Source of the DNA: a virus
Reading direction: 5' to 3' (one strand)
IMG/VR virus record: IMGVR_UViG_3300021373_003472
Location: 1 to 53,518 of that record
Length of the DNA: 53,518 nt
In this document: one piece after another, positions 28,656 to 53,518 of the stretch
Layout of the letters: every line of letters begins with the position of its first letter
Numbering within the stretch: position 1 is the stretch's first letter
Position numbers and translations under genes: made by a program
The notes under the pieces: model-generated
Databases searched by the model: none
Seen by the model: the letters and a program-made list of their open reading frames with translations, nothing else
What the model was told of the DNA's origin: nothing

Positions 28656-29101
28656 TATATTTCTTCTGTGTCTTCTATTTCAGTTTCTGTTTCTATATCT
28701 TCAGCTCCTTCAACATCAGCTCCTACTCCAGTTGTTGTTTTACCCCCATAAGATAAAATCCTAGCTATAGATTCTGCTGCTCTTTCTTCTTCATCTAAAT
28801 TTAATAAATAATATTTTTTACCTTGAACTTTAGCTACCCAACTTCTATCATTATATTCTAATAAGAAATTTTCACCGTTTAAAAGGTTTACTCTAAAAGT
28901 AGAAGGACGAGGAGCAACCCAATCAATTGATTCTAAAAATTTATCAAAATCAACCGTAAGTAAATCAATGATAACTAACTTTAATTCTGGGAATTTGGTT
29001 AGTTCATCATAGGCAATAGCAGCATCTTCACCTTTGGTTTTTTCCTTATAGACTTCTTTTGCAAGTCTTTTTATTTTTTCTTTTAATTCAGAAGCTGTCA
29101 T
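28655..29101 (-). CDS. Hypothetical acidic protein
   Basis: A 148-residue protein starting [20 protein letters not shown]. The middle is mixed alpha/beta (FRVNLLNGENFLLEYNDRSW, then VAKVQGKKYYLLNLDEEERA). The last 30 residues are acidic (EDIETETEIEDTEEI), as in the scaffold. It shares one-base overlaps with both neighbours (stop and start joined), so it is translated with the polyprotein-like gene before it and the nuclease-like gene after it. No family function is known to me. Confidence 0.6.
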   Translation of the reverse strand: MTASELKEKIKRLAKEVYKEKTKGEDAAIAYDELTKFPELKLVIIDLLTVDFDKFLESIDWVAPRPSTFRVNLLNGENFLLEYNDRSWVAKVQGKKYYLLNLDEEERAAESIARILSYGGKTTTGVGADVEGAEDIETETEIEDTEEI

Positions 29102-30894
29102 TATTTTTTATCTTGTTTAGCTAAATAGGCTGCAACAGCCATTTTGCGTCTTTTATCTTGGGATTTTCCTTTGAATTGTTTAGCATCTGATTTTTGGAAA
29201 TCATCTACAAAATCACCTACATCAGATTTTTTAGTAAGTTTTTCTTTTATAGCTTTTATTTCACCACCTTTATTATAGATGTTTGATGCTTTAGTTTTAC
29301 CTTCACCTTTATCATATAATACATTATAGGTAACATCACCAGTCATTTCTTTATTAACTTTAGTGATTTCACCTGGGTGTCCTAGGTATGTTACTTTATC
29401 TCCTACTTTAAATCCTTCAGCTACTTTTTTTTTACCTAATACCTCTTTAACATGTTTTTTGATTAAATGTTTTAAAGGTAATTCAAATACTGTGTCAGCA
29501 TCCATTTCAATTTTTTCTTCATCTATTGAAGATAAAGGTCTATCTTTATAAAAATCTCTTTGTGCTTTAGCTTCTCTATCTAAACCACTCATTACATGAT
29601 CAACTATATCTCTTAAACCTTCAGTTGAAATATCAACTGGGTTGTAGTTACCATCTGTCATGTAAGAATCTATTCCAACTTTACCTGTAGAGTCTTTTCT
29701 CCTCATTCCCGCTTTTGCAGCTTCTTCTTGATCAATTCTATACCCATACATTCTACTAATCATAAATTGATCAACATCTTTATCATATTGGAATATTACT
29801 ACTTGTGATGGATTTTTACTATTATCAGAGGAAACTGAATAGCCATCAAACCCAGCTTCTTTTCCATCTGGTCGGCGTTCTTCAATATGGTATCCTTTTT
29901 TAGCAAAATAATCAAATAATTGACCGCCGTCCATTTCTTCTTCTTTTAATGGTTTGTCAGTACCCATTGCTTTTGAAAGCGCATCATATGCTTTATTTAA
30001 AATACTTCTATTTTTTTCACTTTTATCTTGGTTATAATTACCTCGTGCAACCCAAATATCTCTATGAAAGGGGCTGAGTTTATTATAATCAAGTTCCTCT
30101 TCTAAAGAAGATTCCTGCATATCATGACCATAGAGTTGTTTTTGTATATTATATATTTTATCTTCAATTTTATTTAATTCATCACCATACTTATCTGCAA
30201 TTGGGCCACCTTCTGGTTCAGCTTCTTGCTCCATATCTCGCATTAATTGCTCTCTTTCATCTACTAAATTAGCTAACATATCTTTTAGAGTTTTAGCTTC
30301 ATTAGAATCAATTGCTTCATCTAACATATCATCAATTTGAGCTACTTTTTCTTCACCATCTAAATAATGTTTAGCTGAGACTAATAGATTTTTAGCGTTA
30401 ATAATTTTAGATTGCCACCAGTGTGGAAAATCCACTTCTCCACCTTGATCGTATTTATCCATCATTTCAAATAATTCAGATGAATATTTAGCTATTCTAT
30501 ATAAGTCTTTTTTAAGCATGTGAGGTTCATTGTCTTGATGACCTACATCTAAATCCTCAGTTTTAAGATCTTGTTTAATAGTTACAGGATGCATTTTGCC
30601 ACTACCTTTTGGAAATTCAAATTCTTTTTTACCTGCATCTCTAGCTGCATCTGCTGCTAAAACAAAAGGAGATGCTTCTTTGACAGCAAGAGCATCTTGG
30701 ATCATTTCTTTAAGTTTGTCTAAGTTCATATTTTCAACTTTTTTCTTAGCTTGTTTAGTGGCAATGCCATACATAACCTTTTCCGCATCCGCACCATATT
30801 TTTTAACTAGAGCACGTTTGTTTTTTAACAAACCTTTTAGAGCGATATTTTGTTGCTCTAGTTCGTTTTCGGTGAGTTTACGCTCGTTTAACAT
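29101..30894 (-). CDS. Multidomain polyprotein-like internal protein
   Basis: A 597-residue, highly charged protein made of several modules. These are an N-terminal helical part beginning [15 protein letters not shown]; a module [20 protein letters not shown] at about 75-95; a helical middle with [20 protein letters not shown]; an SH3/KOW-like module [20 protein letters not shown] at about 500-520; and a basic tail [20 protein letters not shown]. The modules and acidic linkers look like those of aquatic-phage head-associated polyproteins that gp21 could cut. A prohead-internal role is inference from composition and context. Confidence 0.6.
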
Positions 30895-39664: not shown

Positions 39665-40147
39665 TTATTTAGTTTCCTTTACAAGATCTTCAAATTCAAT
39701 ATTAGCTAAATCTCTAGTAAAAAATTTTCCTAAAATATTATCATTAAAAAACTCATCTGGTTTTTCTAATACTTGGTATATCATTTGATACTTTACTTCA
39801 AAGTAGGTTAATGATTTTTTATTAGGACATACTTTTAAAATCATACGTTCAAATTCATCTTTTTTACCTTCTGATAAAAGTGTTTTTATATCTTTTTGGG
39901 AACCATAATAATTCAACCAATCAGATTCTTTAACAGCTAGTTTGTAAGCAGGGCGACGTCCAACTACACCTTGTAGTTGTTCTAACTCTCTTTTTCCAAT
40001 TTTTACTTTACGTGTATGATATAAGACTTTTTTTCCGATGTAAGCTTTTCCAGAGGGTTTGTGAGTAACAATATAAACAAAACCAAATGTATTTTCTGGA
40101 AATTGAGTGATGTCCCCTATTTTTTTAGTTTTATAGGTCCAACTCAT
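39665..40147 (-). CDS. GIY-YIG-like endonuclease
   Basis: A 160-residue protein. FGFVYIVTHKPSGKAYIGKK at 21-40 is a GIY-YIG-like opening (VYI, then YIG), followed by basic residues, ESDWLNYYGSQKDIKTLL (a YYGS element near 80) and a C-terminal KSLTYFEVKYQMIYQVL segment. Close relatives occur in many T4-like phages as small putative endonucleases that may nick competing phage or host DNA. A late-promoter element lies 14 nt upstream. Catalytic competence is not proven because the Arg and Glu positions are not certain. Confidence 0.7.
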   Translation of the reverse strand: MSWTYKTKKIGDITQFPENTFGFVYIVTHKPSGKAYIGKKVLYHTRKVKIGKRELEQLQGVVGRRPAYKLAVKESDWLNYYGSQKDIKTLLSEGKKDEFERMILKVCPNKKSLTYFEVKYQMIYQVLEKPDEFFNDNILGKFFTRDLANIEFEDLVKETK

Positions 40148-40161
40148 AGTATTTAAATTTA

Positions 40162-40171
40162 GTATAAATAT
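40162..40171 (-). promoter_or_regulatory. Candidate late promoter (ATATTTATAC variant)
   Basis: The coding strand reads TTAATATTTATACTAAATTT, 14 nt before the ATG at 40147. It starts at the stop of the 1092-residue fusion gene. Confidence 0.55.
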
Positions 40172-43100
40172 TAATTCTCTCTTCGTTCTTCAGGTTCATA
40201 ATGTTTTATGCGCTCGTGCCATATGGGGGAAGCCAATAAAACTGCTGAATTTATTTCATTATTTTTTTGTTTTAAAAATACATAAGACATCCAAGTTTGT
40301 TCAAAGGGATTATCCCATTTTGTATCAATAAAAACTTTTTGATTACCTTTTTTAGACATAATCATAGGCCAGTTAGTGTATGTAATATCTCCTGTTATAT
40401 AAGCCACTCCATCTATAGCATCAATTCTATTAAATTGGGTTCTAGGGGCGTTTGGATCAATCCCATTAGTAGGAAGTTGGTCATAATCAGGCCAATATTC
40501 TGTTCTACTCTCTTGGGGTACATTATACCAGCTAGTTTGGATATTATTATCCCAATATACTTCTGTAAAAGACATTTTTAAATAATCAAAATCTTCTTTT
40601 ACCATTATCTTATGGAGAGTGTTGTATAAATTAGGGATATACTTTCTTAATCCATTTCTACAAAATTGACCTTCATATTCTGGGGGGTTAGATGTCATAT
40701 CATCTTCAAAAAAGAAATAGTAATCTGCATCCGAGTCATGGAAATGTTCTGCTGCTGCTTGTCTTCCACCACAAATTCCTTTATTTCCTTCTAAACTTAT
40801 ATATTCAAAATTATACTCTTGTGCTATTTCTTTATTTTTATTTCTGGAATCTTCATTTGTAGAATTATCTAAAAGTATAAGTTTTGGGTTTTCTAACCAC
40901 TCAGGTACTTTTTTCATTGATTCTATAGTATGAAGTACTTGTTCTGGAAAGTTAAAGGTAAGTATGTATAGGTTAGTTTTAATTTTATTTGGATTATATT
41001 TAGGTTGAATTAATTTTTTTCTTTCTGCTGGAATAGGTTCTAATTCAATATTATCATTTCCTAAGTTAATAGCAAATTTTACAATTAAGCCATTATCATC
41101 TAACATATACCTTCTATAAGTTTCAGGTTCTTGATACGCCATTATAGTAAAAATACTTTCTTCAGTGCCCATTAATCCTCTGTTTAAAGTATTATTTAAT
41201 AAATGCCAATAGGTTCCATTTCCCTCTTGGATTGTTTCTTTAGTACCACCAAATAAACCACCTCTACAAACATATTCAACAGGACAATTAGTATATTCTT
41301 GCATAGCTTTATGTTCAAACCCATGAACTTCATCTACAGCTTTATAAGGCCAACTTAAAAATAAAAATGGATCTAAATAATTTACTATTTTACTAAACCA
41401 ATTATCGGCAAAATAACTTTCATGTACTGACATTGTTATACCTGCATCAAGCCATATAAAATATTCAGAATCAAAAGGATTCCATACAGTAGCATTGTGT
41501 AATAATGAGTACTTACTCATTACTATAGGATTATACCATTCATTTTTACATTGAGGACTTTCTTTTAACCAACCTCCTTCTCCAGTAATATTCACCCATT
41601 CAGGAGAAGTTCGTATTTTTTGGGTCAAATCCCAAAAACCACCATACATTTCTTTAACGTCAGATAATTCATAGATTTTGACAAAAGTATTTTCTTTACT
41701 TCTTTTTTCCCATACTAATTTTTCTAGTTCTGCTGGAAGGTAAAGGAAAAGATTACAATCAAGAGTCATTAATCTTTCTAAATGATCAATGTACATACTA
41801 AAATCTTTTTTATGATTTCCAATGTCCCAAAGTCCAGATACTACTGTAAGTTTATCTGATGGTTTTTGTTCTTTTATGAATTTTTTGCTAATGTAAGTAT
41901 CTTGTAAAATTAAACCATCCATTTCTGTTGTCTTATATACTTCAAAAGCATCTTTATATGTATTTAAAATAGGTTTTCCATCTACATTAAATGAAGTGTT
42001 TAGTAATACTCCTATACCTGTTTCTTCTTTAAACTTAGTTAAAAGATCATATAACCATGGATTTTGTTCTTTAGTAACTGTTTGTACCCTTGCTGTTCCA
42101 TCTATATGGGTAATAGCTTGTAATTTTTCTTTCCATTCATTTTTTACTAAAGGACAATAATTCATCCATCTAGATTCTTTATCAAAATCAAAATAAATAG
42201 AAACATCTTCTAACCTTACTACAGGGGCAAATGGACGATACCATTCTCTATTTTTTACTTTAGCATTAAGAATATCTTTCATCCTTTCTATATTAGGATT
42301 ACAAATAATACTTCTATTACCTAATGCCCTTGGTCCATGTTCTGCTCCATCTCTTACAACCCCAATTATATTCCCTTTTTGAAGATCATTAATTACTTGG
42401 GAAATATTTGAAGATACTTCAAATTTTCCTTCATATTCATATTCATTTAAATATTGTGTTAAATTAAATTTATCAAATATTTTTGGCCCTGCATATGTTA
42501 TATCTATAGATTCTGTGGGTTTAATATGATTACAAAGCATACCAACAGATAAACCACAATCAGATGGATTTGGTGAAATAAAGGTTTCTCTTAATTTCGC
42601 TAATTTAGTATTTAGTAAAATATTTAATCCTCCTCCGCCAGTAATGTGCAAAGGCAGTGTAGGATAAGCATCAAGATGTGGTTGTAAAATTTCTAGTACC
42701 TTTTTTTCTAACATATATTGGTTAGTAGCCGCAAGGTCTTTACTATCCTCTGAATTAGCTAGGTTGTTTTCATCCAATGGAATGTTTAATCTGGTTAGTA
42801 TTTCTTTAAATATACCTTCGTGATCTACTCCAGTTTCTAATTCATACCATTTTTCAAATTCATCTAACCATTCATTTCTAACTTTACCATATCCTGCTAA
42901 TCCCATTAGTTTACCAGCATATACTAAGTTTCCAATTAAGTAATTAGATTCATGTTTTAGTTCACTAACATAATGACCAACCATCCCATAACAAACTCCA
43001 TAATTAACATTTTTATTTAAAATATCTTCAGGATTCTCTCCTTTTTTATGTTTAAATATTCTAAACCATCCATCATTACCACCACCATCAAATGATAGCA

Positions 43101-43449
43101 CTAAAGCTTCATTGTGGTTTGATTGGTATAAAGAACTACAAGAATGATTTTCATGATGGTTAGTTTGGATATACTGGTTTGATTTAAATACTTCTTTTAC
43201 TAAATCTAAATCTACTACATCATAATAGCAATAATCATAAGATTCTATTCCATACTTATCTTTAAAAATATCTTTAACAGATATTAATACATCTTTACTG
43301 TTATCCACTAATGTTGGGGGGTAAAAAAATAGAGAAGCATTTTTTTTATTTACTAATCTTTCAATTTCAATAACTTCTTTTATTTTTCCATCTATTGCTA
43401 AACTAATAGAAGCATTGTGAGAACCATATATTGCTAAAACTGTGTTCAT
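40171..43449 (-). CDS. Carbamoyltransferase / HtrL-like glycosyltransferase / GT-A glycosyltransferase fusion
   Basis: A 1092-residue three-part protein. Residues 1-525 are a NodU/CmcH/TobZ-type O-carbamoyltransferase (LSFDGGGNDGWF at 118-129, HITGGGGLNILLN, RDGAEHGPRALGNRSI at 366-381, LLNTSFNVDGKPI at 482-494), which transfers carbamoyl from carbamoyl phosphate through an adenylate. Residues about 535-800 resemble HtrL/YibB-type glycosyltransferases (VVSGLWDIG, LECN-like strand, FIWLDAGIT at 664-672). Residues about 825-1092 look like a GT-A enzyme (LYILTFNFPEQVLHTIESM, FFFEDDMTS at 912-920). The first part is paralogous to the next gene. The fusion would add and decorate a sugar on one polypeptide. 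Acceptor (virion protein, host glycan or DNA base) is unknown. Confidence 0.85.
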   Translation of the reverse strand: MNTVLAIYGSHNASISLAIDGKIKEVIEIERLVNKKNASLFFYPPTLVDNSKDVLISVKDIFKDKYGIESYDYCYYDVVDLDLVKEVFKSNQYIQTNHHENHSCSSLYQSNHNEALVLSFDGGGNDGWFRIFKHKKGENPEDILNKNVNYGVCYGMVGHYVSELKHESNYLIGNLVYAGKLMGLAGYGKVRNEWLDEFEKWYELETGVDHEGIFKEILTRLNIPLDENNLANSEDSKDLAATNQYMLEKKVLEILQPHLDAYPTLPLHITGGGGLNILLNTKLAKLRETFISPNPSDCGLSVGMLCNHIKPTESIDITYAGPKIFDKFNLTQYLNEYEYEGKFEVSSNISQVINDLQKGNIIGVVRDGAEHGPRALGNRSIICNPNIERMKDILNAKVKNREWYRPFAPVVRLEDVSIYFDFDKESRWMNYCPLVKNEWKEKLQAITHIDGTARVQTVTKEQNPWLYDLLTKFKEETGIGVLLNTSFNVDGKPILNTYKDAFEVYKTTEMDGLILQDTYISKKFIKEQKPSDKLTVVSGLWDIGNHKKDFSMYIDHLERLMTLDCNLFLYLPAELEKLVWEKRSKENTFVKIYELSDVKEMYGGFWDLTQKIRTSPEWVNITGEGGWLKESPQCKNEWYNPIVMSKYSLLHNATVWNPFDSEYFIWLDAGITMSVHESYFADNWFSKIVNYLDPFLFLSWPYKAVDEVHGFEHKAMQEYTNCPVEYVCRGGLFGGTKETIQEGNGTYWHLLNNTLNRGLMGTEESIFTIMAYQEPETYRRYMLDDNGLIVKFAINLGNDNIELEPIPAERKKLIQPKYNPNKIKTNLYILTFNFPEQVLHTIESMKKVPEWLENPKLILLDNSTNEDSRNKNKEIAQEYNFEYISLEGNKGICGGRQAAAEHFHDSDADYYFFFEDDMTSNPPEYEGQFCRNGLRKYIPNLYNTLHKIMVKEDFDYLKMSFTEVYWDNNIQTSWYNVPQESRTEYWPDYDQLPTNGIDPNAPRTQFNRIDAIDGVAYITGDITYTNWPMIMSKKGNQKVFIDTKWDNPFEQTWMSYVFLKQKNNEINSAVLLASPIWHERIKHYEPEERREN

Positions 43450-43916
43450 TATTTATTGTGTTATATAATGGTTTTCTATTATTAAACCATCTAATTCTGT
43501 TGTTTGAAGTATTAAAAAACCATCTTTAATAGTAGATAAAATAGGTTTTCCTGCTACATTAAATGAAGTATTTAGTAATACTCCTACACCTGTTTGTTTA
43601 TCTAATTCAGATAATAATTCATATAAAAATGAATTTTGTTCTTTGGTAACTGTTTGTATCCTGGCTGTGCCATCTATATGTGTAATAGAAGGTAATTTTT
43701 CTTTCCATTCTTCTTTAACCATAGGGCAAAAATTCATCCATCTACTTTCTCCTTCCCATTCAAAATATTTAGAAACATCTTCTAGTCTTACTACAGGAGC
43801 AAACGGACGGTACCATTCTCTATTTTTTACTTTAGCATTAAGAATATCTTTCATATTTGGAATACTAGGATCACAAATAATACTTCTATTACCTAATGCC
43901 CTTGGTCCATGTTCTG
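42239..43916 (-). repeat. Near-identical DNA blocks in paralogous carbamoyltransferase genes
   Basis: Two 44-nt blocks are identical between the two genes: 42239-42282 with 43811-43854, and 42301-42344 with 43873-43916. They encode the catalytic REWYRPF and EHGPRALGNRSI regions. Even synonymous positions agree, unlike the rest of the genes, which suggests recent duplication or gene conversion. Confidence 0.7.
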
Positions 43917-45054
43917 ATTGGTCCCTAATTACTCCTATTATTTTACCATCTTTTAAGTTTTGTACTAATTGTTCAATATTTAATTCATTTACATCATGAG
44001 TATTTAAATATTCTAAAAGAGTACCTAAGTCTAAAATCGGAATACCTTTATAAGTTATATCAATTGGTGTTTTTGGTTTTAAATATGATAATAATAACCC
44101 TACTCCAAGACCACAATCATTAGGATTTGGACCAATAAAAACTTCTTTATTAAATTCAGTTTTAATTCTAGTATTTAGTATAATATTTAAGGCACACCCC
44201 CCAGTAAGTATTATAGGCATATCTTGATATTTTTCCATATAGGGTAAAGCAACTTCTAAAAAACATTCTTCAAAAGCTTTTTGTGAAGTAGCAGCAATAT
44301 CATATGCAATTTGTCCTTTTAACCTGTTATTTCTATCAAATTTTACTCCTATATTATCACCAATAATTTTATTAATTTCTTCTTCATACTCACCAGATGC
44401 TGCATTTGCTTTATAATAATCCATAAAATAAGGAATCCAATCTTCATGTACTTCCCCAAAAGCACATAATCCCATAATTTTACCTGGGTATATTAGATTA
44501 CCATCTGTTAGTGGGATTTGTGTTATATCATCAAAAAAATCTCCAAAAGTTGCATATGGAAAACCTAAATCATAATAAATGTGATCATTTCCTAAAATAG
44601 GATTTTTAACTTTATTAACTAACATAGGTCCTTGTTCTCTATTAGCTAAATAAATATTAAATTTACCATCATCACCCCCTCCATCAAATGAAAATATTAA
44701 AGCACTTTCATATGGAGATTGATAAAAAGCTCCATTAGCATGAGACTCATGATGATTAGGATAAATAAAATTTTTAGCATTAATTTTTTTTGCTAAATTA
44801 GTTGACACTCCATTATGATGAATTACAGAACAATTAGCTATGCAGTTATCAAATTCTTTTATACCATATGTTTTTTCAATCCAATCAAGAATAAAATCTA
44901 CAAGTGTCCAAGGATGTCTGTAAGTTTTGTACTGACATATACCTGAGTTTTTTACACCTGTAATTCTTTCTGTTTCTATAACACATAAAATTTCTCCTTT
45001 ATCTTCTACTACTATAGAACCGTTATGTGAACCGTAAAATGAAATATTAGCCAT
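43453..45054 (-). CDS. NodU/CmcH-type carbamoyltransferase
   Basis: A 533-residue stand-alone O-carbamoyltransferase, paralogue of the first half of the following 1092-residue gene. It shows NHHESHANGAFYQSP, FSFDGGGDDGKFN, LTGGCALNIILN, RDQSEHGPRALGNRSI, VKNREWYRPFAPVVRLEDV and LLNTSFNVAGKPI, the usual set of kinase-like (Kae1-type) N-domain and YrdC-like C-domain landmarks. Such enzymes carbamoylate sugars or antibiotics; some phage members are thought to modify DNA bases. It starts 8 nt inside the upstream glycosyltransferase gene, so both are probably translated together. Confidence 0.93.
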   Translation of the reverse strand: MANISFYGSHNGSIVVEDKGEILCVIETERITGVKNSGICQYKTYRHPWTLVDFILDWIEKTYGIKEFDNCIANCSVIHHNGVSTNLAKKINAKNFIYPNHHESHANGAFYQSPYESALIFSFDGGGDDGKFNIYLANREQGPMLVNKVKNPILGNDHIYYDLGFPYATFGDFFDDITQIPLTDGNLIYPGKIMGLCAFGEVHEDWIPYFMDYYKANAASGEYEEEINKIIGDNIGVKFDRNNRLKGQIAYDIAATSQKAFEECFLEVALPYMEKYQDMPIILTGGCALNIILNTRIKTEFNKEVFIGPNPNDCGLGVGLLLSYLKPKTPIDITYKGIPILDLGTLLEYLNTHDVNELNIEQLVQNLKDGKIIGVIRDQSEHGPRALGNRSIICDPSIPNMKDILNAKVKNREWYRPFAPVVRLEDVSKYFEWEGESRWMNFCPMVKEEWKEKLPSITHIDGTARIQTVTKEQNSFLYELLSELDKQTGVGVLLNTSFNVAGKPILSTIKDGFLILQTTELDGLIIENHYITQ

Positions 45055-45952
45055 CTTGATGAATAATTAAATGATAATGATCCATCATTTCTTTTACCCA
45101 TTTTTCAGGGTATGTTACTTGGTCATTAACATGTGTTCCTGTAATATTTCTTAATACGTGGCAACCTGTGTGATCAGGAAAAGGTAAATTATCTAAAACA
45201 GGGAAGCTATTACAATTTCTGCCTAAAGTATTAATCACTCTCCAATCTGTTTCTTTATCCCAAGCTACACATTTTATATCCTTTTTATGTTTATAAGCAT
45301 AATATCCTACTAAAATATCATCAGACCAATGATTATTAAATATAAATTCTTCATTTAAAAAATCATCTTCAAAAAAAGATCTTTTATAACTTACTGAATG
45401 CCAATGCCCTGTAATCATTATATTATGATCATAAAATAAAGGGAAAACATCTGGCATAGGAGCAAAAGTAAATTTCTTATTCCCTTCTTCATCAGTCCAA
45501 GTTCTTTTCTGGAGTAATCTATCACCTCTGAATGCAATTGCACTATCAGGATATTGTTCTAATTTTTTCAGATGATATTCTAACATATCAGGATGGTATA
45601 AATTATCATCATCTAATATAATTAGAGTATCATCTTTTTTATCTGTATACTGTAAAGCACCAACAATTTTAGTTGGAGGACCATAATCTTTTAATCTGTT
45701 AATTATCAAATGGTCGTATTCTTTTTTTAATTCTTCTACCCATTGTGGAATTTGAATTTCATCACCTTTATCAGTATTTTGAGGCAATCTTCCAATATTA
45801 TCTGCTAATCTTGCTGTATATTTAAAAGGTACATTATAAAGAACTTTATATTTCTTATCAGTATTTTGGGTTAAAAGAGAAACTAAATTTTGCCTTGATG
45901 ATTGTTCAAAATTCATTCTATCAGGTACGGTAGTTAAAGATATATAAATCAT
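45047..45952 (-). CDS. Glycosyltransferase, GT-A type
   Basis: A 301-residue enzyme. MIYISLTTVPDRMNFEQSSR begins a nucleotide-sugar-binding fold, and LIILDDDNLYHPDML with DDD at 114-116 is the metal-binding DxD-type motif. A GPPTKIVGALQYT segment and a C-terminal WSDDILVGYYAYKH region (candidate catalytic base) complete it. There is no membrane segment, so it is cytoplasmic or bound to a complex. Sugar and acceptor are unknown. It is coupled to the carbamoyltransferase gene by an 8-nt overlap. Confidence 0.8.
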   Translation of the reverse strand: MIYISLTTVPDRMNFEQSSRQNLVSLLTQNTDKKYKVLYNVPFKYTARLADNIGRLPQNTDKGDEIQIPQWVEELKKEYDHLIINRLKDYGPPTKIVGALQYTDKKDDTLIILDDDNLYHPDMLEYHLKKLEQYPDSAIAFRGDRLLQKRTWTDEEGNKKFTFAPMPDVFPLFYDHNIMITGHWHSVSYKRSFFEDDFLNEEFIFNNHWSDDILVGYYAYKHKKDIKCVAWDKETDWRVINTLGRNCNSFPVLDNLPFPDHTGCHVLRNITGTHVNDQVTYPEKWVKEMMDHYHLIIHQDG

Positions 45953-45956
45953 GTTT

Positions 45957-46700
45957 TTATATTAAATTTAAAAAAGATAAATCACTGTCAGGTCTAGATA
46001 AATCATTTCCTCTATCTAAAAAACTACAAGGATAATGTTTTTTATCCTCTTTAATATAAGGAACTAAATCTTTATTTACAAAAGAAAGTTCAATTACTTC
46101 AGGAAGGGAATATTGTTTTATATAATTTGTATTAGGAACAATTTCTTCATATGCAAAGTTATTAGCATAATTATTTCCATGGACATGAATTAAATAATAA
46201 TACTCATTAAGTTTATTTATACATTCAAAAAATTCTTTTTGTCTAGTAGGATCTTGAAGCCAATGAAATTCAAAAACTAACCCAGTTGTTACTTCACTAA
46301 GTTTTTGAATATCTGTATTTAGGATATATTCACATTCTGCTCCTTCTACATCAGCTTTGAATAAAACTCTATCTGTAATTCCTGATTGTTCATAATGGGA
46401 TAAAAAATTATCCATATTATCTGTTTTAAACGATGATATTCCTTCTTTGGTATAAATTATATTATTTTTATAATTTTCATCTATTTCAATTCCTTCTATA
46501 GTATGGTCATAACAAAATGCTTTATTTCCAGTTGCATCTACATATGCTTTTTCAAAAGATATATCATTTCCTACTCCATAACTAAAAAGTGAAACACTTT
46601 TTCCTATTGATTGTAAAGCCACAACATACCCCCCATCCCAAAGATTTCCAATTCTTACTTTTTGTAAAATAGGATCATAAAGTTTTAAAGAGTTTATCAT
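45957..46700 (-). CDS. FkbM-family methyltransferase
   Basis: A 247-residue SAM-dependent methyltransferase of FkbM type. YGVGNDISFEKAYVDATGN at 41-59 is the SAM-binding start, VLFKADVEGAECEYI at 112-126 is the family's acidic motif, and FEFHWLQDPTRQ follows. FkbM enzymes O-methylate sugars or polyketides. Within this locus it most likely caps a glycan hydroxyl. It lies 4 nt from the next gene and 6 nt after the previous one. Confidence 0.85.
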   Translation of the reverse strand: MINSLKLYDPILQKVRIGNLWDGGYVVALQSIGKSVSLFSYGVGNDISFEKAYVDATGNKAFCYDHTIEGIEIDENYKNNIIYTKEGISSFKTDNMDNFLSHYEQSGITDRVLFKADVEGAECEYILNTDIQKLSEVTTGLVFEFHWLQDPTRQKEFFECINKLNEYYYLIHVHGNNYANNFAYEEIVPNTNYIKQYSLPEVIELSFVNKDLVPYIKEDKKHYPCSFLDRGNDLSRPDSDLSFLNLI

Positions 46701-46706
46701 TTTTTT

Positions 46707-47666
46707 TTATTTTAGTTTATTTAAATTAATTAATTCTGTAAATATTTTAGTATGAGATTCTAAAGTACAATTTTCATCCCACCATTTTCTTCCGTTTTCT
46801 GATAGAAAAATTCTATAATCTTTATCTTGTTTTACTTTTTCAAAAGTTTCTATATAAGCATCCGCTAATGATTTATAATCTGAAAAATCAGGGCATGGTA
46901 CTTCTGCATAATGGTAGTTAGGGATTAATTTATTATGGTATTGTATATGTAATTTTGGTCTTACTAAAGCAGCCCCCAATCCTAAAGCCTCAAAAGTTCT
47001 ATTAGATACTTCAGCTCCACCATTAAAATCAATATGAATTGAATATTTAGATAATTCTTTAATAAAATCTCTAGGGGGAATAGCTGGGGTTAGGTTAAAT
47101 CTAGTATCATATTTTTTTATATATTCTCTAAAATTCCATATTCCTCCTCCTATAAAAATAGGCTTCTCAGGAGAAATAGTTGATCTTTTTTTATTTTGAT
47201 AATATTGAATAGCTTTATATCCTTCCCAAAACCAAGTACTATTTGTACAAGGAGTATATTTTATAAGAGGGTGAAAGGGTTCATATGTTACATCTTCATG
47301 TTGTAATCCACCACAGGCAAATAATTCTATACAATTATCTAAATCTTCCCATAAATTATCTTTTCGTATTAAATGGTTTTTATCACAATAAGATATGGCT
47401 ATATGTTTACCATTATCTGGGTTTTCTAATAAAGGAATAAATATATTATATTTGGTACAACAACAATATGTTTCTGCTTTATCTTTATTATCAATAGGTA
47501 TTATTTCTATATCAGGATACTTTTGTTGAAGGCTTCTATACAAACTAACCATTGCATAAGATAAAAAAAAGTTACTTGCTCCTATAGAGGTAGAATCTAT
47601 AGGAGTATTTTTAACATCTTCTATAGTCCATCTTGCAGGTAGGGGTAAGTAAAAATTGATTTTCAT
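46707..47666 (-). CDS. Glycosyltransferase, GT-B-like
   Basis: A 319-residue protein. The C-terminal half has a GT-B-type donor-site segment: FNGGAEVSNRTFEALGLGAALV at about 214-235, reported here as NGGAEVSNRTFEALGLG, followed by PKLHIQYHNKLIPNYHY and a helical tail with FLSENGRKWW. The N-terminal half is less typical and carries CCC at 68-70. It resembles CgeB/spore-coat-type glycosyltransferases that act on surface proteins or glycans. It overlaps the gmd gene by 4 nt. The donor sugar is unknown; a GDP-sugar would fit its neighbour. Confidence 0.7.
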   Translation of the reverse strand: MKINFYLPLPARWTIEDVKNTPIDSTSIGASNFFLSYAMVSLYRSLQQKYPDIEIIPIDNKDKAETYCCCTKYNIFIPLLENPDNGKHIAISYCDKNHLIRKDNLWEDLDNCIELFACGGLQHEDVTYEPFHPLIKYTPCTNSTWFWEGYKAIQYYQNKKRSTISPEKPIFIGGGIWNFREYIKKYDTRFNLTPAIPPRDFIKELSKYSIHIDFNGGAEVSNRTFEALGLGAALVRPKLHIQYHNKLIPNYHYAEVPCPDFSDYKSLADAYIETFEKVKQDKDYRIFLSENGRKWWDENCTLESHTKIFTELINLNKLK

Positions 47667-48634
47667 AGTTTATTTCTCCAATATTTTATCATTTCATCTA
47701 ACATCTCTTTAAAACTATATTCACGTTTCCAACCAGTCATTTCTTCTAATTTAGAAGGATCCCCTTTTGTTAATTTAATTTCTTTAGGTCTTAACATATT
47801 AGGATCAGTTTCAATATATTCTTTGTAATCCATTCCTAAACTAGAAAAAACATATTCACATAAATATTTTAAACTATTAAGTTCTCCTGAAGCACATACA
47901 AAATTATTAGGGTTTGATTGTTGTAAAATTAACCACATAGCTTGGACATGATCCTTAGCATGACTCCAATCTCTATAAACATCTAGATTACCTAATTTTA
48001 ATTTATCTTGTTTATTTTTATATATATTAACTGCTCCTTTTATAACTTTAGTAGTAACAAAATTATCTCCTCTACGTGGAGATTCGTGATTAAATGCAAT
48101 CCCTGTACTTATATACATGTTATAGGCTTCTTTATAAGTATTGCATATATTATAGCTAAATACGCGTGAACAGGCATATGGGTTATTAGGATTAAATGGA
48201 GTGCTTTCTCTTTGAAATCCATCACTATCTATATTATTCCCGAACATTTCAGAAGAAGAAGCTTGATAAATTCTTGTTTCAGGAGATATATTTTTTATAC
48301 ATTCTAATACATTCAAAGTCCCAGTTGATATAGTATTATTAGTATAAACTGGATTGTCAAAACTAATTCTAACATCTGATTGGGCTGCTAGATTATAAAA
48401 TTCGTTTGGTTTATATTTTTTTACAACTTTTTGTAAAGAATCTAAATCAGTTACATCAGCATATTCTAATATTATTTTATCTACTAAATGAGATATTCTA
48501 CTATTAGATAAATTAGCATTAAAAGAATGTCTTCTAATAGTACCTATAACTTTATATCCTTTAGATAACAATAACTCAGCAAGATATGAGCCATCTTGCC
48601 CTGTAATTCCAGTTATCAAAGCTGTTTTTTTCAT
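47663..48634 (-). CDS. gmd: GDP-mannose 4,6-dehydratase
   Basis: A 323-residue short-chain dehydrogenase-type enzyme, nearly the usual GMD length. The NAD(P) loop is ITGITGQDGSY at 7-17, IRRHSFNANLS follows, QASSSEMFG at 124-132 holds the catalytic Ser/Glu region, and the product-pocket motif FNHESPRRGDNFVT is at 181-194. It converts GDP-mannose to GDP-4-keto-6-deoxymannose, the precursor of GDP-fucose, GDP-rhamnose and perosamine. The catalytic YxxxK reads YACSR (Tyr153, Arg157), so the usual Lys is Arg. No reductase or aminotransferase for the next step lies in the window. Confidence 0.93.
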   Translation of the reverse strand: MKKTALITGITGQDGSYLAELLLSKGYKVIGTIRRHSFNANLSNSRISHLVDKIILEYADVTDLDSLQKVVKKYKPNEFYNLAAQSDVRISFDNPVYTNNTISTGTLNVLECIKNISPETRIYQASSSEMFGNNIDSDGFQRESTPFNPNNPYACSRVFSYNICNTYKEAYNMYISTGIAFNHESPRRGDNFVTTKVIKGAVNIYKNKQDKLKLGNLDVYRDWSHAKDHVQAMWLILQQSNPNNFVCASGELNSLKYLCEYVFSSLGMDYKEYIETDPNMLRPKEIKLTKGDPSKLEEMTGWKREYSFKEMLDEMIKYWRNKL

Positions 48635-49896
48635 TATAAGTTTATTTCGTATCTTTCAGTCCAACCTCTTTTTTCACTATGACCCCAATAAACTACTTTA
48701 GAAGGATTTTTTTCAGTCATAAACATTTTTTCATAATGTATTGGTTGACCTTGTTCTAAAAATAATTTTAATCTATAATCATCTATATACTCAGATTCAA
48801 TTCCAGTTCCATTTTCATCATCAAAAGCAACTAAGATAAAATTATAGTCTTTTTCAGGTAAATAAGAAGGTTGAATATCTACTAAATGGTAAAAAGAATG
48901 CATAAAACTATCTTCCCATTCTTGTTTATCTTCTATAATAGGGTTTGGGGGTAAAAAATTATCTTTTGTATATTTTTGAAATGATTTTTTTTCAAAATGT
49001 ATACCAGCGTATTTTTCATAATCTCTTAAAGTACGAACTGTTCCTAAATCATAACCAGTTAAATCAAACCCATTATCTTCTACTCTTAGTAATTGTCTTA
49101 TTTTAGCTCTACCTACATTATTTTCTCTCCACCAACTATCTTCACCTCTTTTAGATTGATCATCCCATACTAATATTCCATCTCTTTCTTCTCTCATTGT
49201 AGCATGCCATATTACTACTCTATGAGGATGAAATAAATCGTAACCATGTGTATAACTTCTTACTGTTAAATTTATTTCTTCTCCTGCAAAGAAAATATCT
49301 GAATCGTGTTTTACTTCTCTAGCCCATTTATTAGGACCAAAACAAAAATGTCCAGAAATAAACCTAGCAGGAACTGGTTTGTTTAATTTTTTCCAGTCTA
49401 TTGCAAATCCTGTAGGTCTAATAAAGATAGTGCCATGAGGGTAAAATGAAGCTGCTTCACTATACCATGGTTCTTGAACTCTATCTTCTGGGTCATTAAA
49501 TGGGTTATAATAGGGTAAATAACCACAAATTAAAGGATTATGACCATCTTTAACTAATTGATCGTACCATTCAATTAAAGTTTTATCCCAATCTTTTGTA
49601 AATCTATGATGTGAATCTAATTGTAAAACAAAATCTTCATCTTCTAATAATTGATCATTTATAATTGCTCTTGCATAGGCTAAACCTTTAGCTTCTTCAT
49701 AGGGCATATCATAAATTTTAAATCTTTTATCTTTTCTATATTTGTCTACATTATCAAACCCATCTTCAGGGTTAAATTGCCTACAAATTCCAAAATGTAT
49801 ACGGTTAGGATATTTAGCTTGAGCTAAAGCATCTTCAATTGTAGGTATTAATTCTGGTTCCCTGTAAGCAGGAAGATGTAACATTATTTTTCTCAT
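48634..49896 (-). CDS. Glycosyltransferase, GlcNAc-transferase family (PF11397-like)
   Basis: A 420-residue enzyme. PAYREPELIPTIEDAL at 9-24, MPYEEAKGLAYARAI at 64-78 and FVLQLDSHHRFTKDWD at 89-104 (DSH metal motif), followed by FFAGEEINLTVRSYTHGYDLFHPH (reported as THGYDLFHPH), match the GlcNAc-transferase family whose studied member, Dictyostelium Gnt1, glycosylates hydroxyproline in a protein. The next gene is a paralogue. Acceptor is unknown; a protein is favoured by family. It overlaps both neighbours by 1-4 nt. Confidence 0.85.
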   Translation of the reverse strand: MRKIMLHLPAYREPELIPTIEDALAQAKYPNRIHFGICRQFNPEDGFDNVDKYRKDKRFKIYDMPYEEAKGLAYARAIINDQLLEDEDFVLQLDSHHRFTKDWDKTLIEWYDQLVKDGHNPLICGYLPYYNPFNDPEDRVQEPWYSEAASFYPHGTIFIRPTGFAIDWKKLNKPVPARFISGHFCFGPNKWAREVKHDSDIFFAGEEINLTVRSYTHGYDLFHPHRVVIWHATMREERDGILVWDDQSKRGEDSWWRENNVGRAKIRQLLRVEDNGFDLTGYDLGTVRTLRDYEKYAGIHFEKKSFQKYTKDNFLPPNPIIEDKQEWEDSFMHSFYHLVDIQPSYLPEKDYNFILVAFDDENGTGIESEYIDDYRLKLFLEQGQPIHYEKMFMTEKNPSKVVYWGHSEKRGWTERYEINL

Positions 49897-51359
49897 AAAA
49901 GTTTCTCTAGTCTTTCTTCATGGATATACCCTTTAGATACAGAGTGGGGCCAAATAACATATTTGTAAGGATATTCACCAAAAAATTCCCTCCATATTCT
50001 TACTATCCCATCTCCTTGAGAAGAAGTATGTAATAAAGTATCTATTTCGTTAGTATCAGCATCAACCCTAGATATAACAGTTCCATCTTCTTTTTCAAAA
50101 GATACTACCCAAAAATCATAATCATTTTCTTTAAAATGACCTTCATGTACATCAATACAATGTTTAAAATGTGGAAGTAAAGAATTTTCATATTCTAATT
50201 CACTTAAAGTTTGTGGATTTGGAGGTGGTTTTAAATCTAAAGTATATTGTTGTACTTTTCTATCTTTAAATCTTAACCCAGCATATTTTTCATATTCCTC
50301 TAAAGTACGTTCTTCACCAAAATAAAATTTACCAAAAGACTTTTTAACACAAGGGGTACATACTTCTCCATCCATTTCATGCATTAGTCTATATCTGTGG
50401 TGGGACTGAGCATCTCTTGTTTCCCAATCACTATTATCATCCCAATGTCTTTTTCCTGTACTTCTAGTATATTCATGCCATCCAATAATTTTATGTGGAT
50501 GAAATAAGTCATAGCCATGAGTAAAAGCTCGAGCTGCTATACTTGGTTCTTCTCCATGGAAATACATTTGAGGATCGTGTTGAACTTCTTCACAAAATTT
50601 ACCTGTAGTAAAAGCAAAATGTGCTGAATAAAATCTAGCAGGAATTGGTTCTTTTAATTTTTGCCATTCAGGAATTAATGAAGGGAAAGTGAATATATAA
50701 CCTTCTGGGGTATATCTGTTAAAATCCATTTGCCAAACTTCTTGGGTTCTGCCTTGAGGATCATTATTAGGAAAAAAGGATGGTAAATAAGAAGTAATTA
50801 AAGGTTTTTTACTTCCTTTAGATTGAAGTTGTTTATACATTGCTATTAAATGTTTATCCCATTCTTCAATAAATCTTTCATGGGAATCTATTTGCAATGT
50901 ATATCTTTCTCCTTTATAATATTGTTGGATTTTATGTCTAGCCCAGCATACTCCTTCAGCTTCTTCATATGGTATATCTAATATTGTAAACCTAGAATCA
51001 TTCCAATATTGTTCAGGAATTACATCCCAAGTATCTTCAGCTGCATGTTGCCAGGCAATACAAATTCTTAAATTTTCTGGGTGTTTTGCGTTATATAATA
51101 AACTTTGAATAGTAGGGACAAGTTGGGGGTCTCTATAAGCTGCTATTTGTACAAAAATGGTATCTTTTTTTGTTTGTTTATAAGGAATAAGTATAGTTTT
51201 TTTCTTTTTAGGTTTATTATAAGAAACTAAATCATTTAATTTTTCTTGTCTTTCATCACACCCACAATCATCACCTAAAATTTTTTTAACTAACCATTTT
51301 ATACCCGTAAATTTAGTAATAAATTCGATAGTATCACCTAATCCCTTGTGTTTCCCCAT
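49893..51359 (-). CDS. GlcNAc-transferase-family enzyme with an N-terminal phage Cys module
   Basis: A 488-residue paralogue of the preceding-coordinate gene. Residues about 70-420 carry QIAAYRDPQLVPTIQSL, PYEEAEGVCWARHKI, YTLQIDSHERF (DSH at 158-160) and THGYDLFHPH. Residues 1-48 are a different small module, GKHKGLGDTIEFITKFTGI and ILGDDCGCDERQEKLNDL, which I know as a free-standing short protein in Bacteroidota phages. Fusion to a glycosyltransferase suggests it docks the enzyme to a target. The ATG lies directly after TTATTTATA. Otherwise no promoter is seen. Confidence 0.82.
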   Translation of the reverse strand: MGKHKGLGDTIEFITKFTGIKWLVKKILGDDCGCDERQEKLNDLVSYNKPKKKKTILIPYKQTKKDTIFVQIAAYRDPQLVPTIQSLLYNAKHPENLRICIAWQHAAEDTWDVIPEQYWNDSRFTILDIPYEEAEGVCWARHKIQQYYKGERYTLQIDSHERFIEEWDKHLIAMYKQLQSKGSKKPLITSYLPSFFPNNDPQGRTQEVWQMDFNRYTPEGYIFTFPSLIPEWQKLKEPIPARFYSAHFAFTTGKFCEEVQHDPQMYFHGEEPSIAARAFTHGYDLFHPHKIIGWHEYTRSTGKRHWDDNSDWETRDAQSHHRYRLMHEMDGEVCTPCVKKSFGKFYFGEERTLEEYEKYAGLRFKDRKVQQYTLDLKPPPNPQTLSELEYENSLLPHFKHCIDVHEGHFKENDYDFWVVSFEKEDGTVISRVDADTNEIDTLLHTSSQGDGIVRIWREFFGEYPYKYVIWPHSVSKGYIHEERLEKLL

Positions 51360-51415
51360 TATAAATAACTTTTATTATTAATGTACAACTTAATTATTTA
51401 AAAACCAAATTATTT

Positions 51416-51754
51416 TTATCTATCTATATTAATTATTATATTAGTATCTGTTATTTTAGATGTTGGTAAAGGTTTAGCTAATTTAGCAACTGCTAATAAA
51501 TTATGATTGTCATCATATAACCCTACAGTAGTTACATAAGGAGCAAAATAAGAACCTGTTACAAAATCATATACAAACCCTTCACTACCTGTAAGTAATG
51601 TTGGGTTATTAGAATAATTATACTCATCTGCTCCTATAGTACAATTATATTGGGTTTCAAATATAGTAAAAGAACTAGAGAATGAAATTGTTACATCAGA
51701 ACCTGTAATGTATGTATTTAAAAAATTATTATAAACCTCTCTTGGAGTAGCCAT
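51416..51754 (-). CDS. Small beta-rich structural-type protein
   Basis: A 112-residue protein (MATPREVYNNFLNTYITGS). It has a beta-rich core FVTGSYFAPYVTTVGLYDD and a LLAVAKLAKPLPTSKITDTN segment, followed by IIINIDR. Such LAKP-containing tails occur in virion proteins of related aquatic phages. An ATATTTATAA element lies 16 nt before the ATG, so it is a late gene. A fibre-associated or structural role is likely from context, next to the Ser/Thr-Pro fibre and glycan genes. Confidence 0.6.
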   Translation of the reverse strand: MATPREVYNNFLNTYITGSDVTISFSSSFTIFETQYNCTIGADEYNYSNNPTLLTGSEGFVYDFVTGSYFAPYVTTVGLYDDNHNLLAVAKLAKPLPTSKITDTNIIINIDR

Positions 51755-51770
51755 ATTATATTATTATATA

Positions 51771-51780
51771 TTATAAATAT
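51771..51780 (-). promoter_or_regulatory. Candidate late promoter (ATATTTATAA element)
   Basis: The coding strand reads AAATATTTATAATATATAAT, 16 nt before the ATG at 51754. It would drive the small structural gene and could feed the glycan locus behind it. Confidence 0.6.
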
Positions 51781-51796
51781 TTTAAATTAATACTTT

Positions 51797-52303
51797 TTAA
51801 TTTTTTGTCCAAAGAGTATTATTTAAACAGATATATATACTTCCATTTTGATTAACATTGCCCTTAAATCTATTTAATAATATAGGTTCATTTTCAGGTA
51901 TATTTTCGAAATCTTTCCCCCACCAAATGTCTAATAAAATTAAATCATAAGTATTTGTAGTAGTATAATTAAATACATCACCCACAATTAGATTAATAGA
52001 TGAATCTAAATGATTGTTATTTTGTACCCAATAAACTAATTCACTATTATTATCAATTACATCTATAGTACTACAATCTGTATTATTTGAAATCCAATAA
52101 GGCATATATCCTAATCCTAAACCTCCAATTAATATAGAATCATAAGTTAAATCATGAATTCTACTGCAAATATTTAAATAATCTTCATTATTTTTTAAAG
52201 GTTGTCTAAAATGTTTTTGGTCAAAAAACCAATAACTATTTTCTATAAATTTTATATTAAAGCTATTGCCATCATATTCAGTAAGTAAATTATTAGGTAT
52301 CAT
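51797..52303 (-). CDS. Spermidine-synthase-like small methyltransferase fold protein
   Basis: A 168-residue Rossmann-fold protein. ILIGGLGLGYMPYWIS at 57-72 is a SAM/decarboxy-SAM-binding loop, STIDVIDNNSELVYWV gives the acidic strand end (Asp81 to Asp84), VGDVFNY is at 107-113 and YDLILLDIWWG is at 119-129. It resembles the C-terminal core of spermidine synthases and related methyltransferases but is much shorter. It lies between the fibre and glycan genes and might methylate or aminopropylate a surface component. Substrate is unknown. Confidence 0.7.
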   Translation of the reverse strand: MIPNNLLTEYDGNSFNIKFIENSYWFFDQKHFRQPLKNNEDYLNICSRIHDLTYDSILIGGLGLGYMPYWISNNTDCSTIDVIDNNSELVYWVQNNNHLDSSINLIVGDVFNYTTTNTYDLILLDIWWGKDFENIPENEPILLNRFKGNVNQNGSIYICLNNTLWTKN

Positions 52304-52319
52304 ATTATTTTATTTTTAA

Positions 52320-53518
52320 TTAAAAACTACACAGTCCTGTTAATGTTAATACTCCACTACCATTAGTTGTACCATATTCAAAACCATCTGAAACAAAGAA
52401 GTTATTAAGTGTTTTAACACAACTTGTATTAGTATATATAGTTATACCATTTGTAAAACTACTGCTACTAGCTCCTAAGTTAGATGGTATTGCTTCACAG
52501 GCAGTGGCAGCAGAGACACTACTAAATCCTAATGATTGAGTAAAACAACTTACGGCATTAGTTGGAGTTCTAGAAGGTGTTCTACTAATTGAAGGTGTAA
52601 TACTTACACTAGGAGTTCTAGATACAGATGGAGTCCTTGATTTAGAAACTGATGGTGTGGGAGTAGTACATGTACTAGCTATATCAATTACTTCCCCAAC
52701 ATTATTAATCTGAATTGCTTTTGTAGGTGAACCTGTTGCTGATGCTATACCATAGTAATAAGATTGGCCATTAAAAGGTGTACCAACATTATCAGTTATA
52801 ATTGTTCCTGTTGTAATAGCTGAGAATGTTGAAACATTAGCATATAATCCATTAGCTGCAAACCCAGCACAAGCATCAACTACATTAGTATAATTATTAC
52901 TATCTGCTGTTCTAGCTCCTACAAAGAAGAAACCAGGTGTTGTTGAAATTGAAGGTGTTCTAGATACCGAAGGAGTTCTTGATGGAGTATTTGAAACACA
53001 AGTTGAAACTACTCCAACTTTAGCATAGTTAGTTCCTCCTTCAGGGCTAATAGTATAAACATTAGCTCCATTAGCTATATAAACAGGAGATGTAGCTCCC
53101 CCAGGAAGAAAATCTCTAAGATCCGTAGTATAATCCGCAGGGGTTCCAGCACTATCAGTTGTATATAGGTAATCTCCTACTTGTAATGGGGCTCTATCAT
53201 AGTAAACTTTTGTTGTATGAGGATTAAAACATGCATCTACAGCAGTTAATGCTAAATTATATGTAAGTCCAGTTAATGGTGATGTTGGTGTTCTTGTAAT
53301 ACTTGGTGTTATACTCACACTAGGGGTTCTTGAAGGTGTTCTAGTAATTGAAGGTGTTAGAGATACAGAAGCAGTTCTTGTTATACTAGGAGTCCTAGAT
53401 ACACTAGGTGTTCTAGAAGGAGTCCTTGTAATTGAAGGTGTAATACTTACACTAGGGGTCCTAGATACACTAGGTGTTCTAGAAGGAGTCCTTGTAATTG
53501 AAGGTGTAATACTTACAC
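52320..53518 (-). CDS. Beads-on-a-string Ser/Thr-Pro fibre protein, 5' end cut by right window edge
   Basis: The frame stays open from the stop at 52320 to the window edge, about 400 codons; the GTG near 53318 is an internal Val codon. The visible chain is an N-terminal Ser/Thr-Pro repeat region (SITPSITRTPSRTPSVS type) and then three small globular units of roughly 75-100 residues. Each has a DAC or TAC near its start and a Cys near its end (VVSTC, ASTC, LTGLCSF), and Ser/Thr-Pro linkers such as SRTPSVSRTPSIS separate them. The Cys pairs may form one disulfide per bead. This is an extended virion fibre or adhesin by design, and its linkers are typical O-glycosylation targets. Confidence 0.8.
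   Translation of the reverse strand, partial: VSITPSITRTPSRTPSVSRTPSVSITPSITRTPSRTPSVSRTPSITRTASVSLTPSITRTPSRTPSVSITPSITRTPTSPLTGLTYNLALTAVDACFNPHTTKVYYDRAPLQVGDYLYTTDSAGTPADYTTDLRDFLPGGATSPVYIANGANVYTISPEGGTNYAKVGVVSTCVSNTPSRTPSVSRTPSISTTPGFFFVGARTADSNNYTNVVDACAGFAANGLYANVSTFSAITTGTIITDNVGTPFNGQSYYYGIASATGSPTKAIQINNVGEVIDIASTCTTPTPSVSKSRTPSVSRTPSVSITPSISRTPSRTPTNAVSCFTQSLGFSSVSAATACEAIPSNLGASSSSFTNGITIYTNTSCVKTLNNFFVSDGFEYGTTNGSGVLTLTGLCSF
53393..53518 (-). repeat. 66-bp tandem repeat coding a 22-residue Ser/Thr-Pro unit
   Basis: The 66-bp unit beginning at 53393 recurs from 53459. All 60 visible bases of the second copy are identical to the first, and the window ends inside it. Weaker copies of the same phrase occur at 53280-53392 and inside the linkers. 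The unit keeps the reading frame (22 codons), so copy number can change without breaking the protein. Confidence 0.85.

Follow-up and report, generated by a model that had tools for sequence, protein, structure and literature searches.

A cassette of sugar enzymes beside a mucin-like fibre gene: candidate threonine O-glycosylation of the fibre in large environmental phages

Why would a tailed phage carry a run of sugar-enzyme genes directly beside the gene of a fibre rich in Thr-Pro repeats, and on which molecule would these enzymes act? The question is raised by a 53.5-kb virus record (the window, i.e., the whole stretch of DNA that was analysed), which is open at both ends. An earlier note on this DNA had proposed that the locus builds a glycan on the fibre linkers, naming the host surface or DNA bases as alternative targets.

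The cassette and the adjoining fibre gene

Portal, terminase, capsid and protease genes elsewhere in the window identify an ordinary tailed phage; for the gene at 29101-30894, the best relative comes from Flavobacterium phage immuto, and a FAD/NAD-dependent oxidoreductase-like gene (24752-26038; PF07992, 8.3e-11) lies near the structural genes. The cassette genes are all encoded on the minus strand, at the coordinates that the earlier note had claimed; in order from the fibre, they are:

52320-53516, minus strand: Thr-Pro-repeat (mucin-like) fibre, C-terminal part, open at the right window edge
51797-52303, minus strand: 168-aa weak methyltransferase-like protein (PHROG 15480, 5.6e-4)
51416-51754, minus strand: 112-aa conserved protein with no assigned function (homologues in 12 of 87 loci)
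49893-51359, minus strand: GT60A, GT60-family polypeptide glycosyltransferase (PF11397, GlcNAc, 8.4e-70)
48634-49896, minus strand: GT60B, paralogue 39% identical to GT60A (PF11397, 2.6e-48)
47663-48634, minus strand: gmd, GDP-mannose 4,6-dehydratase-like (PF16363, GDP_Man_Dehyd, 2.4e-107)
46707-47666, minus strand: probable glycosyltransferase, weak (PF13524, 0.0073, below cut-off)
45957-46700, minus strand: FkbM-type methyltransferase (PF05050, 2.3e-5)
45047-45952, minus strand: GT2-type glycosyltransferase (PF00535, 3.9e-6)
43453-45054, minus strand: NodU-type O-carbamoyltransferase (PF16861, 6.8e-61; PF02543, 1.7e-23; PHROG 1601)
40171-43449, minus strand: three-part fusion of NodU (aa 1-530), HtrL_YibB and GT2 (Pfam, NCBIfam)

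The gene list of the earlier note was right in substance, with eight sugar-enzyme genes in 40171-51359 and a ninth only if the weak gene at 51797-52303 is counted; of its "at least five" glycosyltransferase units, four are confident, to which YibB and the weak product of 46707-47666 can be added. The gmd gene and the two NodU-type carbamoyltransferases were borne out by Pfam matches, the identity of gmd being given by NCBIfam at a score below its strict cut-off. The two least secure assignments are FkbM, which barely exceeds the Pfam cut-off (25.1 versus 22.7 bits) and falls under that of NCBIfam, and the 46707-47666 transferase, whose Pfam score is below the cut-off; this transferase has homologues in 13 GT60 loci. 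A methylated, carbamoylated deoxy-sugar is plausible as the exact sugar, but a reductase completing a GDP-deoxysugar was not found. The position of the 168-aa gene is kept across the four closest relatives, and the 112-aa protein, 90% identical to its counterpart in the related genome G004, has homologues adjoining Thr-Pro ORFs in other phages.

The mucin-like Ser/Thr-Pro fibre reported beside the cassette is real. Its repeat part, of about 215 aa, contains 40% Ser+Thr, 24 Thr-Pro and 3 Ser-Pro; full-length counterparts measure 1235 aa (G005) and 3617 aa (G004), with 40-44% Ser+Thr, and Thr-Pro outnumbers Ser-Pro by 487 to 17 in G004 and by 111 to 7 in G005, despite serine being more frequent than threonine in the latter. 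An acceptor motif centred on threonine would account for this excess; since repeats can also multiply by copying, it counts as supporting evidence only. A PHROG search of the fibre and a tblastn search of it against cultured phages returned nothing useful. The closest relatives preserve the order fibre, 168-aa gene, 112-aa gene, GT60A, GT60B, and upstream of the fibre they encode gp25-like and gp6-like baseplate wedge proteins, along with a protein of 2736 aa that weakly resembles tail fibres, a context that places the fibre as the last gene of a baseplate/tail operon. One criterion for virion glycosylation is a glycosyltransferase gene beside a structural module, and fibre and baseplate genes do adjoin the cassette in these relatives.

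GT60 enzymes, their fold and their gene neighbourhoods

The PF11397 profile agrees with the earlier assignment of both transferases to the family of Gnt1, with matches (8.4e-70 and 2.6e-48) far above the cut-off of 21, and the DxH metal-binding motif (D158, H160) is invariant in the 79 and 81 sequences aligned. An AlphaFold model built from 79 sequences reached a pLDDT of 90 (only 55 in a six-sequence version); its 30 best PDB matches were all polypeptide GalNAc-transferases, several of them solved with mucin peptides, with COLGALT1 appearing later, and the best match (E 2.0e-10, TM about 0.45) is a distant one. A PDB sequence-profile search with a six-member GT60 alignment gave chance matches only. 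The polypeptide alpha-GlcNAc-transferase of T. cruzi, from the same CAZy family, starts mucin glycans on threonine (PMC6939170, PMC3769586), and Gnt1, likewise a GT60 enzyme, acts on hydroxyproline of Skp1 (PMC6939170). The phage enzymes share PF11397 with these eukaryotic proteins, which act on protein (PMC3769586, PMC6939170), and differ from them in three ways: they appear to be cytosolic, their genes lie in clusters with those of tailoring enzymes, and they are longer by an additional C-terminal region. GT60A is the likely initiating enzyme of the glycan, and GlcNAc is probably its donor, by analogy with the family. At its N terminus, GT60A is extended by about 60 aa (51174-51359), a part that was modelled with low confidence and matches PHROG 32048 weakly (0.0011). 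In BFVD, the giant-virus proteins A0A5J6VLN4 and S4W0H0 (Megaviridae, Pandoravirus) resemble the modelled GT60.

A six-member GT60 profile matched at least 591 viral stretches, and hundreds of viral contigs encode such GT60s; 80 loci, chosen by GT60 alone, were kept. When the cultured phages XacN1 and RAS14 and the first matches are added, the recurrent set of GT60 and YibB-GT2 is present in 69 of 87 loci, and NodU in 19. The genes around and between these two, surveyed in 56 loci after near-duplicates had been weeded out manually (the scan covered 145 of the 158 proteins), encode mostly sugar enzymes: GT34 (10), DUF273 (10), NodU (9), FkbM (8), Methyltransf_24 (8), GT25 (7), GT2 (7), epimerase (4), PLOD-type glycosyltransferase (3), fucosyltransferase GT10 (3), TylF (3) and gmd (2), these counts overlapping, as a single protein may match several families. 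The fusion partner of YibB-GT2 also varies, being NodU in the window (40171-43449) and a methyltransferase in L002:16220-18634; in this last locus, the cassette adjoins replication genes (DNA polymerase) and not fibres.

The association of GT60 with Thr-Pro ORFs (defined by at least 10 Ser/Thr-Pro within 60 aa) was assessed in both directions. Half of the GT60 loci (40/80) contain such an ORF, and the other 40 have none within 10 kb; in 18 of the 80 it is the gene immediately preceding GT60 on the same strand, where 2.19 would be expected from the remaining genes of these loci, and after removal of GT60s more than 80% identical, in 10 of 49 (1.23 expected; Poisson 7e-7). Likewise, the gene upstream of GT60 has at least 20% Ser+Thr in 17 of 48 cases, versus 74 of 766 (p 4e-6). 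Among whole contigs, 21 of 24 encode a Thr-Pro ORF, adjacent to GT60 in 8 (1.03 expected), although some of these contigs were picked after repeats had been seen near GT60, which makes the test on all 80 loci the fairer one. For the reverse direction, contigs were picked independently of GT60 by a DNA scan for TPTPTPTP, and PF11397 was found in 8 of 18 long Thr-Pro contigs versus 1 of 18 without a repeat ORF in the stretch examined (Fisher 0.009), or 4.5 versus 0.9 per Mb, given that the contigs of the two sets were unequal in length; none of 14 control genomes contained PF11397. In addition, a Thr-Pro ORF accompanies NodU in 8 of 19 loci with GT60 and in 0 of 14 without it (Fisher 0.005). Thr-Pro ORFs are nevertheless often found without a nearby GT60 (62 of 67 loci, in the stretch examined), and a tally of Pfam families downstream of them was mixed, with no dominant partner; thus, repeats alone predict no glycosylation cassette. 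Three whole contigs (G011, G031 and G033) encode GT60 and no Thr-Pro ORF, which means that in some phages GT60 must act on a different protein.

In bacterial genomes, GT60 is often located inside type VI secretion loci (TssG, TssA), directly after a secreted fimbrial-fold protein. A T6SS marker was present in 19 of 79 bacterial GT60 loci, for instance L402:4759-10066, L366:6970-7983 and L356:6738-7901, from Yersinia, Burkholderia, Paraburkholderia and relatives. A locus from an Eremiobacterota MAG (L407:1-10648), where GT60 occurs with a phage-baseplate/VgrG-like domain and an eCIS_core protein, is probably an extracellular contractile injection system. Both arrangements are consistent with GT60s serving appendage proteins of contractile machines.

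The likely acceptor of the glycan

A cultured phage and published work on virion glycosylation offer points of comparison. The jumbo phage XacN1 encodes a GT60 (ORF334), NodU and YibB together, near a giant Thr-Pro-rich ORF, as in the window, with a shorter tailoring set. According to the main text of its report, the virion proteome of XacN1 includes at least two glycoproteins, which the authors suggest are made by phage transferases; another transferase, ORF328, is noted, and the glycan carriers are not named there (PMC5852040). For a glycan on the virion of the phage in the window, these glycoproteins are indirect evidence (PMC5852040). In mycobacteriophages, phage-encoded transferases glycosylate virion proteins (Freeman et al. 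2023, cited in PMC12619734, PMC10877033); as that work is described where it is cited, the carriers are capsid and tail tube, whereas the candidate carrier here is a mucin-like fibre, the enzyme family is close to mucin initiators and the tailoring set is replaceable. A description of GT60/PF11397 phage systems or of mucin-like phage fibres was not found in the open literature, subscription journals and preprints lying outside the search. We regard the locus as probably a previously undescribed form of the known phage-encoded glycosylation of virions.

Taken as a whole, we consider it quite probable that the locus O-glycosylates the phage's own fibre on threonine, with tailoring genes that are exchanged. 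A cytosolic GT60 would place the first sugar, probably alpha-GlcNAc from UDP-GlcNAc, directly onto threonine of the Thr-Pro repeats. Lengthening of the chain would fall to GT60B, the remaining transferases and YibB-GT2, and the supply or modification of its sugars (6-deoxy sugar, O-methyl, O-carbamoyl) to gmd, FkbM and NodU. Recombination would exchange the tailoring genes between the constant GT60s and, usually, YibB-GT2. The part of the earlier proposal that survives is the decoration of the phage's own fibre, favoured by the linkage in both directions, the tail-operon context, the mucin-type fold and the XacN1 glycoproteins; its lead towards hydroxyproline gained no support.

The main rival explanation is that the cassette does glycosylate the virion, but mainly on some tail or head protein other than the fibre, with the Thr-Pro repeats as mere neighbours in the fibre module. 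The half of GT60 loci devoid of a Thr-Pro ORF within 10 kb speaks for it, as do L003 and L004, where the genes preceding GT60 are large, rich in Ser/Thr and virion-like but lack Thr-Pro repeats, and the bacterial GT60s that follow fimbrial-fold proteins; however, adjacency to GT60 is more frequent for Thr-Pro ORFs than for the remaining genes of the viral loci, and threonine is strongly preferred before proline, and we judge this explanation unlikely. Glycosylation of hydroxyproline within the repeats, as performed by Gnt1 on Skp1, would suit a GT60 enzyme (PMC6939170) and a proline-rich substrate, but PF13640 was absent from the window and was found in only 1 contig out of 42, and PF13759 in 0 of 31, these contigs being fragments, and the T. 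cruzi member of the family acts on threonine (PMC6939170, PMC3769586). The search covered these two families in phage contigs, host enzymes and other 2OG families lying outside it; the lack of linkage to prolyl hydroxylase families favours threonine as the acceptor, and leaves the hydroxyproline route highly improbable.

Two further explanations place the modification on something other than a virion protein. That the enzymes hypermodify phage DNA, as phage glycosyltransferases do in T4, would accord with a weak PHROG match to HMC-glucosyltransferase (0.0054) and with the L002 cassette adjoining DNA polymerase; the thymidylate synthase/hydroxymethylase family is encoded by only 3 of 26 contigs, themselves fragments, and the modelled GT60 fold would be that of a polypeptide transferase, which makes this the least probable of the explanations weighed. 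Temperate phages alter the host surface with O-antigen transferases, a precedent for enzymes that would change host surface glycans and block superinfection. Against such a role, which we hold to be very unlikely, no cassette enzyme has a membrane segment (the highest 19-residue hydropathy is 1.31), no flippase or bactoprenol-linked enzyme domain was detected in the cassette by Pfam, and the closest solved structures are of enzymes acting on protein. Both alternatives of the earlier note are therefore less likely than glycosylation of the fibre.

Exchange of tailoring genes and its significance

Replacement of the middle genes was observed directly between relatives. G005 and G007 share 90% DNA identity over 30 kb, ending a few bases from the GT60B stop, and 95% identity resumes at the start of YibB-GT2; between these points, one carries NodU and one further gene, the other two different genes and a diverged NodU. 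When the window is compared with G004, the flanking exonuclease and primase (96%), gmd (90%; missing in G005-G007) and GT60B (85%) are conserved, and YibB-GT2 (63%), GT2 (45%) and FkbM (28%) have diverged, with NodU absent. A systematic comparison, whose fibre comparisons are made meaningless by low-complexity filtering, found conserved flanks and matchless middle genes also in several further groups, among them L047/L061, L042/L066, L029/L062, L036/L086 and L027/L064, with a median flank identity of 82.5-96.5%; YibB-GT2, part of the 40171-43449 fusion and the constant boundary opposite the GT60s, is itself replaced in some of these groups. Immediately next to the exchanged cassette lies a gene (39665-40147) whose 160-aa product matches homing-endonuclease PHROGs (2.6e-9; the best PHROG bears the name "NAD synthetase"). 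Relatives retain this gene, and its product could take part in the exchange.

Since the GT60s and usually YibB-GT2 are constant and the tailoring genes are exchanged, close relatives should carry different glycans, and this swapping favours a glycan that is variable and exposed. Bacterial O-antigen and outer-core polysaccharide loci, among them the OC locus of A. baumannii, have constant ends and exchangeable tailoring genes. The phage cassette is built alike, and differs in that its glycan is probably linked to protein on a virus, with no lipid carrier or flippase. More tentatively, at somewhat less than even chances, we put forward a joint reading in which large environmental phages possess a polymorphic "glycotype" locus and GT60s also serve appendage proteins of T6SS and eCIS; in such a locus, the constant GT60s and YibB-GT2 would bracket exchangeable tailoring genes and thereby give near-identical phages different sugar coats on their fibres. 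As to the benefit, our guess is that the glycan shields the extended fibre linker or allows escape from host factors recognising it.

If fibre glycosylation on threonine is true, phages own a mucin-type route of protein glycosylation, with an enzyme related to eukaryotic mucin initiators, and apply it where the virion makes contact with the host. The enzymes would then be tools for producing O-glycosylated repeat proteins in the bacterial cytosol. Exchange of tailoring genes between near-identical phages would add a level of surface variability over and above that of protein sequence, of interest for how phages recognise hosts, compete with one another and stay stable in water.
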